Source: Akkermansia muciniphila (GTDB lineage Bacteria; Verrucomicrobiota; Verrucomicrobiia; Limisphaerales; UBA11320). From it: a DNA stretch of 37,358 nucleotides. Under the pieces are notes generated by a model. The model was not told the origin of the DNA. It ran no database searches and saw nothing but the letters and a program-made list of their open reading frames with translations. The translations under genes and the position numbers were made by a program. This document shows, in pieces, positions 28,102 to 33,100 of the stretch. Every line of letters begins with the position of its first letter. Position 1 is the stretch's first letter. The stretch is from contig CAMAVD010000018.1 of the NCBI GenBank assembly GCA_945861575.1, forward strand, positions 1-37,358, read 5' to 3'.

Positions 28102-30147
28102 ATGAAAATCCAGGCCCTCATTTTTTCTCTAGGGCTGGCGTGCTCCCAAACCGCACTCCTACAGGGGGCGGACCATAGCGTGGCCCGCATCTGGGACGAG
28201 GAGATCCTCTCCGCCATCCGGATCGATCTCCCGCATCCGCCGGTGCACGCACGCAATCTCTTCACGCTCTCGGCAGCGATGTACGACGCCTGGGCCGCCT
28301 ACGACCCGGTCGCCGTGGGCTTCGTGCACCATGAGAAACACAGCGCCGCGGATGTTGAGGCTGCCCGTCACGAGGCTATTAGCTACGCGGCCTATCGCAT
28401 CCTTAAGGAGCGCTTCGCTCTATCGCGCAACGCAGTCACCACGCTCGCCGCGCTCGACGTTCGGCTTGCCGCTTTGGGCTACAACAAGAACAATTTCAGC
28501 GTGGATGCCTCCACTCCCGCAGGCCTAGGCAATCGGATCGCGGCCGAGGTCTCGTCCTATTTCCTGAACGACGGGGCGCTCCAATTACGCGCCTACGCAG
28601 ACTACCCCGCTTACCCCGCTTCGCTAGGAGGCTACGCCTCGGTCAACCGCCCCTTGATCACAGGCAGCCGCGAAAGCCTGGCATTCGACGTGAACCGGTG
28701 GCAACCGCTGGTCATCACCAATCAGGTCAGCCAGAATGGCATCCCCCTTGAGGCAATTCAAAAGTTTCTCGGAGCGCAGTGGCTGAGCGTTCGTCCCTTC
28801 GCCCTGACGCGCAACGACGCCAGCAAGCCTTGGATCGATCCCGGCCCCCCGGATCGCCTGGGCGGAGCCGGGGACACCCGTTTCCGGAGCGAGGTCGTGG
28901 ACGTGATCCGAGCCAGCAGCATTCTCACGCCGGACGACGGGGTCAACATCGATATCTCCCCCGGGGCCACAGGAAACAATAGCCTTGGAACCAATGACGG
29001 ACAGGGGCATCCAGTGAATCCAGCCACAGGCCAACCCTACCCTCAGAATCTGGTCAAGCGCGGCGACTTTGCTCGAGTGCTGGCAGAGTTCTGGGCGGAT
29101 GGCCCCAGCTCGGAGACCCCTCCCGGACACTGGAATACCCTTGCCAACACCGTCAGCGACCATCCCGGCTTCCAGAAGCGACTAGGCGGAGTGGGTCCAG
29201 TGCTCGGCGCACTCGAGTGGGATGTGAAGGTGTATTTCGCCTTGAACGCAGCCGTGCATGACGCGGCCTGCGCTGCCTGGTCGCTCAAGCGCTATTATGA
29301 TGGTTGGAGACCGATCGCTGCGATTCGCTACATGGCCATGTTTGGACAGTCCACCGACATCTCCAGCTTCATATACCATCCCCGTGGCCTGCCCCTCGTG
29401 CCTGGACTGATTGAGGAAGTGACCCAGGACACGGCCGCACAAGGAGGAAGACATGTGGGTTTACCTGTGGGGGAAATCGCGATCTATGCCTGGCCTGGGC
29501 AGCCTGCCAATCCCGCCACTCAATACAGCGGTGCCCGCTGGATGCTGGCAGTGGACTGGCTTCCGTTCCAGAAGAAGAACTTCGTGACACCAGCGTTCCC
29601 CGGCTACGTCTCCGGACATAGCACCTTCAGCCGATCCGCCGCCGAGGTGCTCACCGCGATCACCGGCAGCCCCTACTTCCCAGGCGGACTGGGAATCTTC
29701 AACGCCCCCGCGAATGTCTACCTCACCTTCGAGAAGGGCCCCAGCGCGGATATCCAACTGCAATGGGGCACCTACTACGACGCTGCGGATCAGGCGGGCT
29801 TGTCTCGAATTTTTGGCGGCATCCATCCCAGCAACGACGATCTGGTCGGACGCGAGACCGGAGCGCTCTGCGGTAAGGCCGCCTGGAACTTGGCCCGCCA
29901 ATACTTCGACGGCTCGATCCTGAACACGCCGCTTGCCATCACCATGGTTCCCGTCGATCAGGTGCAATGTGAAATCCGTTTCAACACCCTGCGCGGCTTC
30001 CACTACAAACTGATGGGGTCCCCGGATATTCACGGAGAATTCGAGGAGATACCCTTCAGCGGCTTCCAGGCGGTGGACACCACCTACTCTCGCGTGGATG
30101 CATTCCTAGGGATCCAAAAATTCTTCAAGGCCGTCCGCGTGGAATAA
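28102..30147 (+). CDS. secreted vanadium-dependent haloperoxidase-like (PAP2 superfamily) protein
   Basis: 681 aa; signal peptide MKIQALIFSLGLACSQTALLQGA; vanadate-binding motifs KRYYDGWRP (Kx6RP), GYVSGHSTFS, SRIFGGIHPSNDD (SRxxxGxHxxxD). Confidence 0.9.
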   Translation: MKIQALIFSLGLACSQTALLQGADHSVARIWDEEILSAIRIDLPHPPVHARNLFTLSAAMYDAWAAYDPVAVGFVHHEKHSAADVEAARHEAISYAAYRILKERFALSRNAVTTLAALDVRLAALGYNKNNFSVDASTPAGLGNRIAAEVSSYFLNDGALQLRAYADYPAYPASLGGYASVNRPLITGSRESLAFDVNRWQPLVITNQVSQNGIPLEAIQKFLGAQWLSVRPFALTRNDASKPWIDPGPPDRLGGAGDTRFRSEVVDVIRASSILTPDDGVNIDISPGATGNNSLGTNDGQGHPVNPATGQPYPQNLVKRGDFARVLAEFWADGPSSETPPGHWNTLANTVSDHPGFQKRLGGVGPVLGALEWDVKVYFALNAAVHDAACAAWSLKRYYDGWRPIAAIRYMAMFGQSTDISSFIYHPRGLPLVPGLIEEVTQDTAAQGGRHVGLPVGEIAIYAWPGQPANPATQYSGARWMLAVDWLPFQKKNFVTPAFPGYVSGHSTFSRSAAEVLTAITGSPYFPGGLGIFNAPANVYLTFEKGPSADIQLQWGTYYDAADQAGLSRIFGGIHPSNDDLVGRETGALCGKAAWNLARQYFDGSILNTPLAITMVPVDQVQCEIRFNTLRGFHYKLMGSPDIHGEFEEIPFSGFQAVDTTYSRVDAFLGIQKFFKAVRVE

Positions 30148-30158
30148 GCCAAGACCTG

Positions 30159-33100
30159 CTATTCGGCACGGATTCGGTAGAAGCGCATCGAGGGCGCAGG
30201 CACCGTCGCATCAACCTGCTCCAGTCGTCCACTCACTCCAAGGGTCACCTCACGCGAAACCGTCCACTGCTCCAGGTCTGCCGACGCCTCCAACAGGTAT
30301 CGACCAAACGCGCGGCCCTGCATTCCCAAACGAATCGCTCCCCTCTCCTCCAATCGCACAAAACTGAAAGCGGGCGCAATAACCGGTATAGCAGCCGCCA
30401 CCAAAACATCGTCAAGCCGGAGCTCCGCCCGAGGACCGGAAACACCGGAAACATGATGATACACCCAGCGAATCTGCACATACGGACGATTGAGCAAGAC
30501 CGCAGGCAAGGTGTAGGGCCCTAGGACCCGGGCGTGTCCTTGTCGTTCTGCCCTCTCATAGGAAATGGGTCGCCCCAAAGAATCGGTCCAATCCGTAAAC
30601 GCTCCTGAGTTCCCGATGCGGTATTGGAGCCGAAGCGCATAGGAACGGCTATTGGTCAACACAGTGCCTGCGGTGAACTGGATCTGTGCCTGCGTCACAC
30701 CTAAGGTATTCAAACCAAGGACCGCCGCACCGACATATCCCCCGCCATCCAGCTGACTATCGCTGGTATTCAAGAACCCAACCCCCTCCTCTCCCAAGCC
30801 GAGGACTCGAGACCGGCTCGGACGATCGTAGGGCAGCGTCCAAGGATCGTCGAAGGCAGCGTCCGCCACCGGCTCCGCGACGGGTGTCTGCTGGAAACGC
30901 ATGTGAGGGGGGTAACTCCCGGCAGGTTCCGACGCCGCCCATCGCTCGAACAAATAGGGACCGTCGGCCAAGGGCCAGGCCTTTGGAACCTGAGTCAGAG
31001 TGGACGGATCTAAAACGAAGAGCGCGGTGAGCGCGAGGTCTTGGTCCGGTGTCAGATTCAAGGTTTGCGCCGCGCCAGGGCGATCTCGCCACCCAACAAA
31101 GCGATACCCTGGATTGGCAATCGCGGTGGCCGTCACCGGATGTCCTTTGAAGTACACTCCGGTCCAGGGTGCCTGAACAGATGCCGAGACATCAATGGAG
31201 TTCAAACGAATCGCCCCAGCAGCAAGCTCATCCACCGCCAAGCGGACAACGACGCTGCCAGCGAGACCGAAGCGACTAGCCAGCTGTTGCCTCATGGCAG
31301 CAGGTCGCCGCACGGCAAAGTCCCGTACCACTCTCACCTGATTACTCCATTCGCTCAGCGTCGAGGGGGCGTGCCAGCGGTCGACATGCTCCCTCATCTC
31401 GGGGGCAAGCTGGGTGGCAAATGAGTCGATGCGCGCAAGAACATGATTGGTATGGAAGGTGGTGTTCAGCAGATCCGCCCAGCGATTGATCCAATCACGA
31501 CGAAAGCCCTGATTCGTCAGCAGTGTTCGCAACAGATACGTCACCACGGGGCTGTTGTGATCATTGCCGCCCGGGTTGGACGAATACTGCGTCCAGGGTC
31601 CATTCGCTTCCAAATCATAATTCAGCATGGGAAAAGACCAGGCTGGCGGCACCGCCCAGAAGCCGCCCCAACCGACGTCGCAGTCGAAGAGGATCCAGCG
31701 GAATCGTCCTTCCGGAGTGCGCGGCCGCCAGAGACGATGGTTCCCGATGTCCCATCGATAGTAATAGATCTCACAAATTTTGAAGTCGCCGAAGTTCTCA
31801 ACCTGCATGAAGTCGCGAACCTGAGCGAACTGGCCGGGATCGGTGAGATCATGCGTCTGAAGAAAGCTCATCAGTTCTGACCAGCGCACCCCATCCCCCT
31901 CGACCGCACTTGCAAACCCTTCCAAATAGTCCACATTGTCAGGATCTACGCCTGGCTGGTGCGCGGCAAAGTAGCCTCCCTCAAAGGCCTCCTGAAGATG
32001 GTGGATGCCCCAGTACTCCCCATTGATGAAGAGCACGGCCGGTCGATAAGCCTGCGTGTCCAAGCCCAGCTCCGCCCCCAAACTTTGCATGAAGATGTCG
32101 CGAAACATCGTGAGATTGTAGTCATGGCCCGAGGGCCGCAGAAGAAGGCGATTGTATCGGGTCACCGGTCGCTCGGGGAAAATCCGATACTCAAACGGAC
32201 CCGTACCCGGGAAGTTCAGCGGATGCAGGCGAAGCCCTTTGACAGGGAAGTAGAACGAGGTGTTGCCATGCATCCGGATGCCAGTCCCTTGCGAGATGAC
32301 CGCCACTCCGTTGGTCTCAAAGAGATCCACATGCCCCGGACGCTCCCACAAATCTCCCGACTGGGCGTAGTTACCGCCAGCCGCATTCCCTGGAACATAA
32401 ATGCCCACGTTGTCATCGAAGAAGTTGGCTCGATCGCTGACCAGGGACACCACCGGCATGGAATAACGGCTTCCGCCCTTGGGGTGAATGAGATAGGAAC
32501 GAGTGGCGGACGGGGCCGAGAGTCCGCCCTCCTTGAACGCACGGGCTCGCACGACGGTGAGCTTGTTCACCAGGCCGGTGGGAGGAGCAATGCCTCCAGG
32601 CACGGTGGGAATCAGGGACAGCACATTGGGCAAAGTGGCTCGATTGGTAACCAGAAGCGGTGCTGTGTAGACGAGAGACTTTGTGCTCGGCTCGGAGCCG
32701 TCCAGGGTGTAACGGATAATGGCTCCCTGGTTCGTCACGGAAAGAGTGACTAGGAACGCGTTGGAGTAAGCACCGCTCGGATGGGAAAAACTCGGCGCTC
32801 CTAGCAACTCCGTCGCAGAAACCGTGAGATTGGATGCACCCGGTGTAGGGCTCTGGAAAAAGGCCCAGGGCCCTATCCCATCGAGCTTCCGCCCATAGGA
32901 TACGTCGCGGGGAAGATCCCCAGGGTAGCGAATCTCGTCGGACTTGGAACCGTCTGGCCGTGTCAGCACCACCGATTCGCCCCCGCTGCCCAAGGCAAAG
33001 GAAGCATGAAGCGATGAGCGTGGCAGCAGGCGATACGATTCGAGGAGAAAACGCTGAAGCCCGAGCATCTCCGCATCGCTCAAGGCGCGACGAAAAATCA

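Follow-up and report, generated by a model that had tools for sequence, protein, structure and literature searches.

A recurrent C-terminal FYR module on exported proteins of Verrucomicrobiota is a possible lineage-specific sorting or retention tag

Introduction

Two neighbouring genes in a verrucomicrobial genome encode secreted proteins that are otherwise unrelated but appear to end alike, which raises the questions of whether the two tails are homologous and what such a tail might do. The genes lie in a window of 37,358 nucleotides, the whole stretch of DNA that was analysed, and converge on each other with their stop codons separated by a short spacer (Table 1). The initial annotation described a pattern of residues common to both tails, and likened its logic to that of the PEP-CTERM and Por tags that mark exported proteins in other bacteria. 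Here, we examine the ancestry, distribution, predicted fold, and protein context of these tails, which we call the FYR module.

Results

The first protein is a vanadium-haloperoxidase/PAP2-like protein (VHPO), for which a Pfam scan detected DUF6851 (4e-17), with VCPO_2nd and PAP2 under the cut-off. Its catalytic part stops at approximately residue 606, and homologues from outside Verrucomicrobiota align only to approximately residue 605. The second protein, hereafter the CotH protein, matches CotH (5e-41), CHB_HEX_C_1, LTD, and Flg_new_2. The tails are located where the initial annotation placed them, and the endings quoted there are exact.

Table 1 Features of the convergent gene pair and their C-terminal modules.
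Feature	Position	Strand	Basis
Secreted vanadium-haloperoxidase/PAP2-like protein (VHPO), 681 aa, N-terminal signal peptide	28102..30147	+	ORF, Pfam
FYR module of the VHPO (C-terminal 75 aa, closing with KFFKAVRVE), diverged copy	29920..30144	+	Profiles; AlphaFold2 pLDDT 91
VHPO stop codon	30145-30147	+	
11-bp spacer separating the two convergent stop codons	30148..30158	.	
CotH protein stop codon	30159-30161	-	
FYR module of the CotH protein (C-terminal 75 aa, closing with RFYRIRAE)	30162..30386	-	Profiles; AlphaFold2 pLDDT 88, six strands
Secreted LTD / chitobiase-C / CotH kinase / InlB-repeat protein, 1313 aa	30159..34100	-	ORF, Pfam

The pattern seen by eye is, taken alone, insufficient to establish homology. 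When one tail is aligned straight to the other, 37-70% of shuffled sequences score equally well, and searches of the genome with each single tail recovered only 2 and 1 extra matches. A database search with a degenerate pattern taken from the alignment was abandoned because the members are too divergent. In forty 20-kb stretches sampled from the same genome, numerous proteins were seen to close with [FY][FY]R, and an iterated hidden Markov model (HMM) was built from 28 such copies encoded elsewhere in this genome, with both window proteins left out. This model matches the CotH tail with E=2e-9, the match reaching the last residue, and aligns with the VHPO tail in full register at 9.5 bits (p=5.7e-5), a score attained by none of 2000 shuffles. 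Eight of 718 unlabelled tails outscored the VHPO tail, all of them resembling further family members, while reversed whole proteins gave no match at E<1e-3. The tails of 21 VHPO orthologues from the same order score 16-26 bits, far above the VHPO of the window, and a profile–profile comparison of 88 modules from non-VHPO proteins with 38 VHPO tails gave a probability of 98.4% (E=6.3e-15) over 74 columns. The resemblance that the initial annotation described therefore stands on profile and orthologue evidence, and falls to chance level when the two tails are aligned directly. That two unrelated tails are alike by chance, as the pairwise alignment taken by itself would allow, is refuted by the profile–profile match and also by the HMM, orthologue, and shuffle evidence, and we give it almost no credence. 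On these profiles the two tails are homologous, and the VHPO of the window carries a diverged copy that has FFKAVRVE in place of FYRvr.

The module is abundant. At E<=0.01 the genome contains at least 128 copies, a lower bound obtained by scoring 150 of 221 candidates in a 5.2-Mb assembly that is 86% complete. Across a sample of the phylum, in which no more than 14 candidates were scored in any genome, at least 157 of 388 genomes have a match at 1e-4. VHPO homologues led to 28 genomes from within and outside the phylum, which we compared. Six of these are verrucomicrobial and carry 15-146 copies each. The 22 others come from Chloroflexi, Myxococcota, Planctomycetes, Actinobacteria, and Proteobacteria; the search matched nothing in 21 of them and gave one weak match in the last. 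Judged by these profile searches, the module is restricted to Verrucomicrobiota among the 28 genomes tested. The searches of genome, phylum, and outgroups bear out the statement in the initial annotation that FYRxR endings recur in exported proteins of Verrucomicrobiota. At weak module scores the discoidin (F5/8C) hairpin is a source of false positives; similarity to discoidin in the PDB and in some low-copy genomes was judged to be convergence on the motif WEAAYxxxYxLExSxDgxxW. No family in Pfam (member sets A1, A2, and A3) or NCBIfam (set A1) covers the module, and no paper describing it was found among the open-licence literature.

The two genes of the window are probably adjacent only incidentally, since the VHPO flanking stretches examined in relatives contain no CotH gene, and a genome that carries more than 120 copies should have a few of them side by side. 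A shared operon or conserved neighbourhood was rejected on the same flanks. As a separate observation, CotH kinases themselves are strikingly expanded, with 56 matches across this single 5.2-Mb genome, many of which belong to proteins of ~2000 residues.

AlphaFold2 models of both modules are confident (Table 1). Their nearest folds are fibronectin type III (FN3) and immunoglobulin (Ig) domains, with modest significance (Foldseek E at or above 0.02), and sequence profiles match FN3 weakly; no member of sets A1, A2, or A3 matches PF00041 at the E-values used. When aligned to FN3 domains from the same genome, the RFYRvr segment corresponds to strand F; FN3 then completes its seven-strand A-B-C-C'-E-F-G sandwich with strand G, whereas the module stops. 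A median of 5 residues follows the arginine of the FYR motif, too few for a further strand. We infer that the module is an FN3-like β-sandwich of ~75 residues that ends after strand F and lacks strand G, a gap that an N-terminal strand may fill. From these models the module appears either to descend from, or to strongly resemble, a fibronectin type III-like sandwich. The modules are highly divergent, and almost only core-type residues (W, Y, and FYR) are kept.

A fold of this kind would also suit an accessory domain, either passive or ligand-binding, in which a short FN3-like sandwich caps or stabilises long secreted proteins, or lends them weak binding to polymers, and has no dedicated sorting partner. 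Secreted enzymes commonly carry FN3 and carbohydrate-binding domains as accessories. Duplication inside the phylum would then have multiplied the module, which would be mostly terminal because a domain lacking strand G is easily appended. We regard this explanation, including its account of spread and position, as a serious possibility that falls somewhat short of even odds. Both the similarity to FN3 and Ig folds and the conservation centred on core-type residues, which a plain structural domain would also display, speak for it, whereas the small number of fn3 matches in the genome, only 7, speaks against it.

The position of the module bears on the same choice. Statistics on position and cargo were drawn from the sampled stretches and from stretches around matches in this genome. 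Among the 94 copies whose stop codon is visible, 86 end within 12 residues of it, only one protein in 96 has two copies, and the best copies from other genomes of the phylum are terminal in 28 of 29 cases. Because the seeds had been selected for C-terminal FYR endings, the counts may be too low for any subfamily that is internal throughout, although full-length frames were scanned with the profile. An ordinary accessory domain frequently lies inside a protein or in tandem arrays, whereas 91% of the FYR copies are terminal and 95 of 96 proteins have just one. Internal and N-terminal copies do exist, as an accessory domain would predict: 8 of the 94 (about 9%) precede other domains. In five of the non-terminal cases, which include CotH-type proteins, the module is succeeded by one or two Ig domains. 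In three proteins (L022:4747-5901, L224:3326-4189, and L269:1372-2889) the module is N-terminal to a formylglycine-generating-enzyme-like (FGE-sulfatase-like) domain, the reverse of the usual order; the Ig and FGE-sulfatase-like names were read from the protein sequences themselves. In loci L298 and L299, copies are followed by a common region of ~110 residues (..ATYDRxGIAGTYF..), possibly another terminal domain. One 1079-residue frame (L247:1341-4577, minus strand) begins with a DeoR-like helix-turn-helix and ends with the FYR module, and may be a fusion or an artefact of assembly or frame.

The proteins that carry the module are enriched for predicted signal peptides. Among proteins with no other transmembrane segments, a crude home-made but strict predictor assigned a signal peptide to 48 of 63 with the module and to 104 of 367 others (Fisher p=9e-13). 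For several of the 15 module proteins with no predicted signal peptide, visual inspection reveals one that a wrongly placed start had obscured. An earlier lenient rule, under which 186 of 375 long background proteins, about half, were positive, was discarded for the stricter one. The module accompanies VHPO, CotH, LTD, Ig, FG-GAP, RCC1, BspA-type leucine-rich repeat, InlB repeat, CBM4_9, and metallophosphatase domains. This lack of a common substrate among its bearers argues against an accessory domain. The enrichment of profile hits at C termini and on signal-peptide proteins, which the initial annotation had proposed as a check, is thus found, and its picture of a small β-rich domain at the end of diverse exported proteins agrees with a module present once per protein, overwhelmingly terminal, and associated with signal peptides.

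A folded Ig-like domain of ~75-80 residues at the exact C terminus of large exported proteins follows a logic similar to that of the type IX secretion system (T9SS), and the module could be a T9SS C-terminal domain, or Por tail, with the system itself present in this genome. We consider this very unlikely. No member of the module family matches the Por/T9SS tail models (TIGR04183, TIGR04131, and PF18962) in Pfam or NCBIfam, and no SprA match was found in the 86%-complete genome, a search in which control genomes gave none either. T9SS was found only in Bacteroidetes in a survey of bacterial secretion systems (Abby et al, 2016; PMC4793230), a restriction that also argues against its presence here.

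The VHPO family allows the suffix to be compared across phyla, in 80 loci with homologues from many phyla aligned to approximately residue 605. The FYR module follows approximately residue 606 in 37 loci, almost all of which have verrucomicrobial titles. In planctomycetes the suffix is instead either PEP-CTERM, with three proteins above the TIGR02595 cut-off, or dockerin, with two above the Pfam cut-off and one just below. Two VHPOs from Lysobacterales have a hydrophobic tail recognised by no model, and those from Chloroflexi, Myxococcota, Actinobacteria, and other groups end 1-10 residues past the core. Inspection of individual loci showed that planctomycete homologues at L135, L157, L162, L166, and L170 have dockerin, or EF-hand repeats resembling it, at the C terminus, and that in a VHPO from an Opitutales bin (L137) a Trp-rich tail of 111 residues replaces the FYR module, perhaps as another lineage-specific module.

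A C-terminal suffix on some members of a homologous family is a mark of the LPXTG, PEP-CTERM, and GlyGly-CTERM systems (Haft and colleagues; PMC3237569), and in VHPO the suffix is likewise present in only some members of a family homologous over its full length. Sorting domains are also expected always to be C-terminal, whereas 8 of 94 copies of the FYR module are followed by another domain, and always to accompany an N-terminal signal peptide, for which the module proteins are strongly enriched (48 of 63). Because the module stands in the slot of PEP-CTERM or dockerin on homologous VHPOs, this exchange of suffixes is, by analogy, the strongest functional clue to a putative role in sorting or attachment, and the FYR module is probably the phylum's own tag. 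Sharing the slot with PEP-CTERM weighs against a plain accessory domain; sharing it with dockerin weighs in favour of one, as a binding module fits that slot as well as a sorting tag does.

A further possibility is that module proteins are processed by an exosortase. The genome has two exosortase-like genes just under the TIGR02602 cut-off (G000:C40:13008-13718 and G000:C21:17154-17786) and about 10 PEP-CTERM matches. PEP-CTERM processing requires a PEP motif, a transmembrane helix, and basic residues, of which the module has none. Module members do not match TIGR02595 or PF07589 (set A1 in NCBIfam; sets A1, A2, and A3 in Pfam), and they lack a C-terminal transmembrane helix with basic residues, closing with the RFYRvr strand and its few following residues. 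Furthermore, the frames with PEP-CTERM matches are short (86-305 aa), and neither of the PEP-CTERM proteins identified in sampled stretches, two in all, has an FYR module. Exosortase processing of module proteins is very unlikely, and exosortase/PEP-CTERM is a separate, smaller system in this genome.

Discussion

We put at roughly one in two the chance that the Verrucomicrobiota-specific module of ~75 residues, of which both tails are copies, acts as a lineage-specific, folded C-terminal sorting or retention tag. An accessory domain is nearly as likely, given the internal copies and the absence of evidently conserved surface residues. If the module is a tag, its bearers would be exported by Sec, the module would fold in the periplasm, and a common envelope component would recognise the folded module and deliver the protein to the cell surface or hold it there. 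More speculatively, the open edge beside strand F could be a docking site for a partner strand, as in donor-strand complementation. A bolder version, to which we assign a low probability, would make the FYR module the recognition domain of an undescribed secretion or surface-display system of Verrucomicrobiota that serves more than 100 proteins per genome, with a strand donated by a receptor in the outer membrane or at the surface completing the sandwich. Counting against a tag of either kind, no receptor, protease, or translocon for the module was identified in the analysis, and the copies with domains after them argue against a signal that needs a free C terminus. Low-copy genomes were rejected as a route to a neighbouring machine because their flanking stretches are too short and their matches are partly discoidin.

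Several known systems offer comparisons. Like the FYR module, PEP-CTERM (TIGR02595, PF07589) is a C-terminal suffix with many copies per genome on diverse signal-peptide proteins, is added to some members of homologous families, and occupies the same VHPO slot in planctomycetes. It differs in consisting of a PEP motif, transmembrane helix, and basic tail within ~24 residues, whereas the FYR module is a predicted folded β-sandwich of ~75 residues, is sometimes non-terminal, and has no known enzyme. The T9SS C-terminal domains (TIGR04183/PF18962 and TIGR04131) are also folded, Ig-like, similar in size, and found at the C terminus of large exported proteins, but they have another terminal motif, belong to another phylum, and show no profile match, and the T9SS translocon was not found here in an uncontrolled SprA search. 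The analogy with PEP-CTERM and Por tags drawn by the initial annotation consequently survives in terminal placement, diverse cargo, and slot exchange, and fails on the anatomy of PEP-CTERM and on matches to T9SS tail models. Fibronectin type III (PF00041) resembles the module in predicted fold and, weakly, in sequence from strand A through strand F, whereas the module ends after strand F, is nearly always single and C-terminal, and lies below Pfam detection. Dockerin type I (PF00404) is likewise single, mostly C-terminal, on diverse secreted proteins, and in the same planctomycete VHPO slot, but has a calcium-binding helical fold and a known cohesin partner, whereas the FYR module is not known to have a partner. 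The chaperone-usher pilin domain, also an Ig-like sandwich lacking strand G, is similar in idea only; no sequence similarity was seen, and the open groove of the FYR module is a prediction.

The general kind, a C-terminal homology domain marking exported proteins, is already known. The FYR domain itself, with its phylum restriction, copy number, and predicted folded, FN3-like form, is absent from the family libraries searched. The route by which Verrucomicrobiota bring very large exported proteins onto the outer membrane or past it is apparently undescribed in the literature searchable here. The FYR profile offers a marker for candidate surface proteins and a bait for a receptor, and the module could serve as a label for finding a machine by phylogenetic profiling, as was done for exosortase and rhombosortase. 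As a family, it would annotate very many nameless ends of verrucomicrobial proteins.
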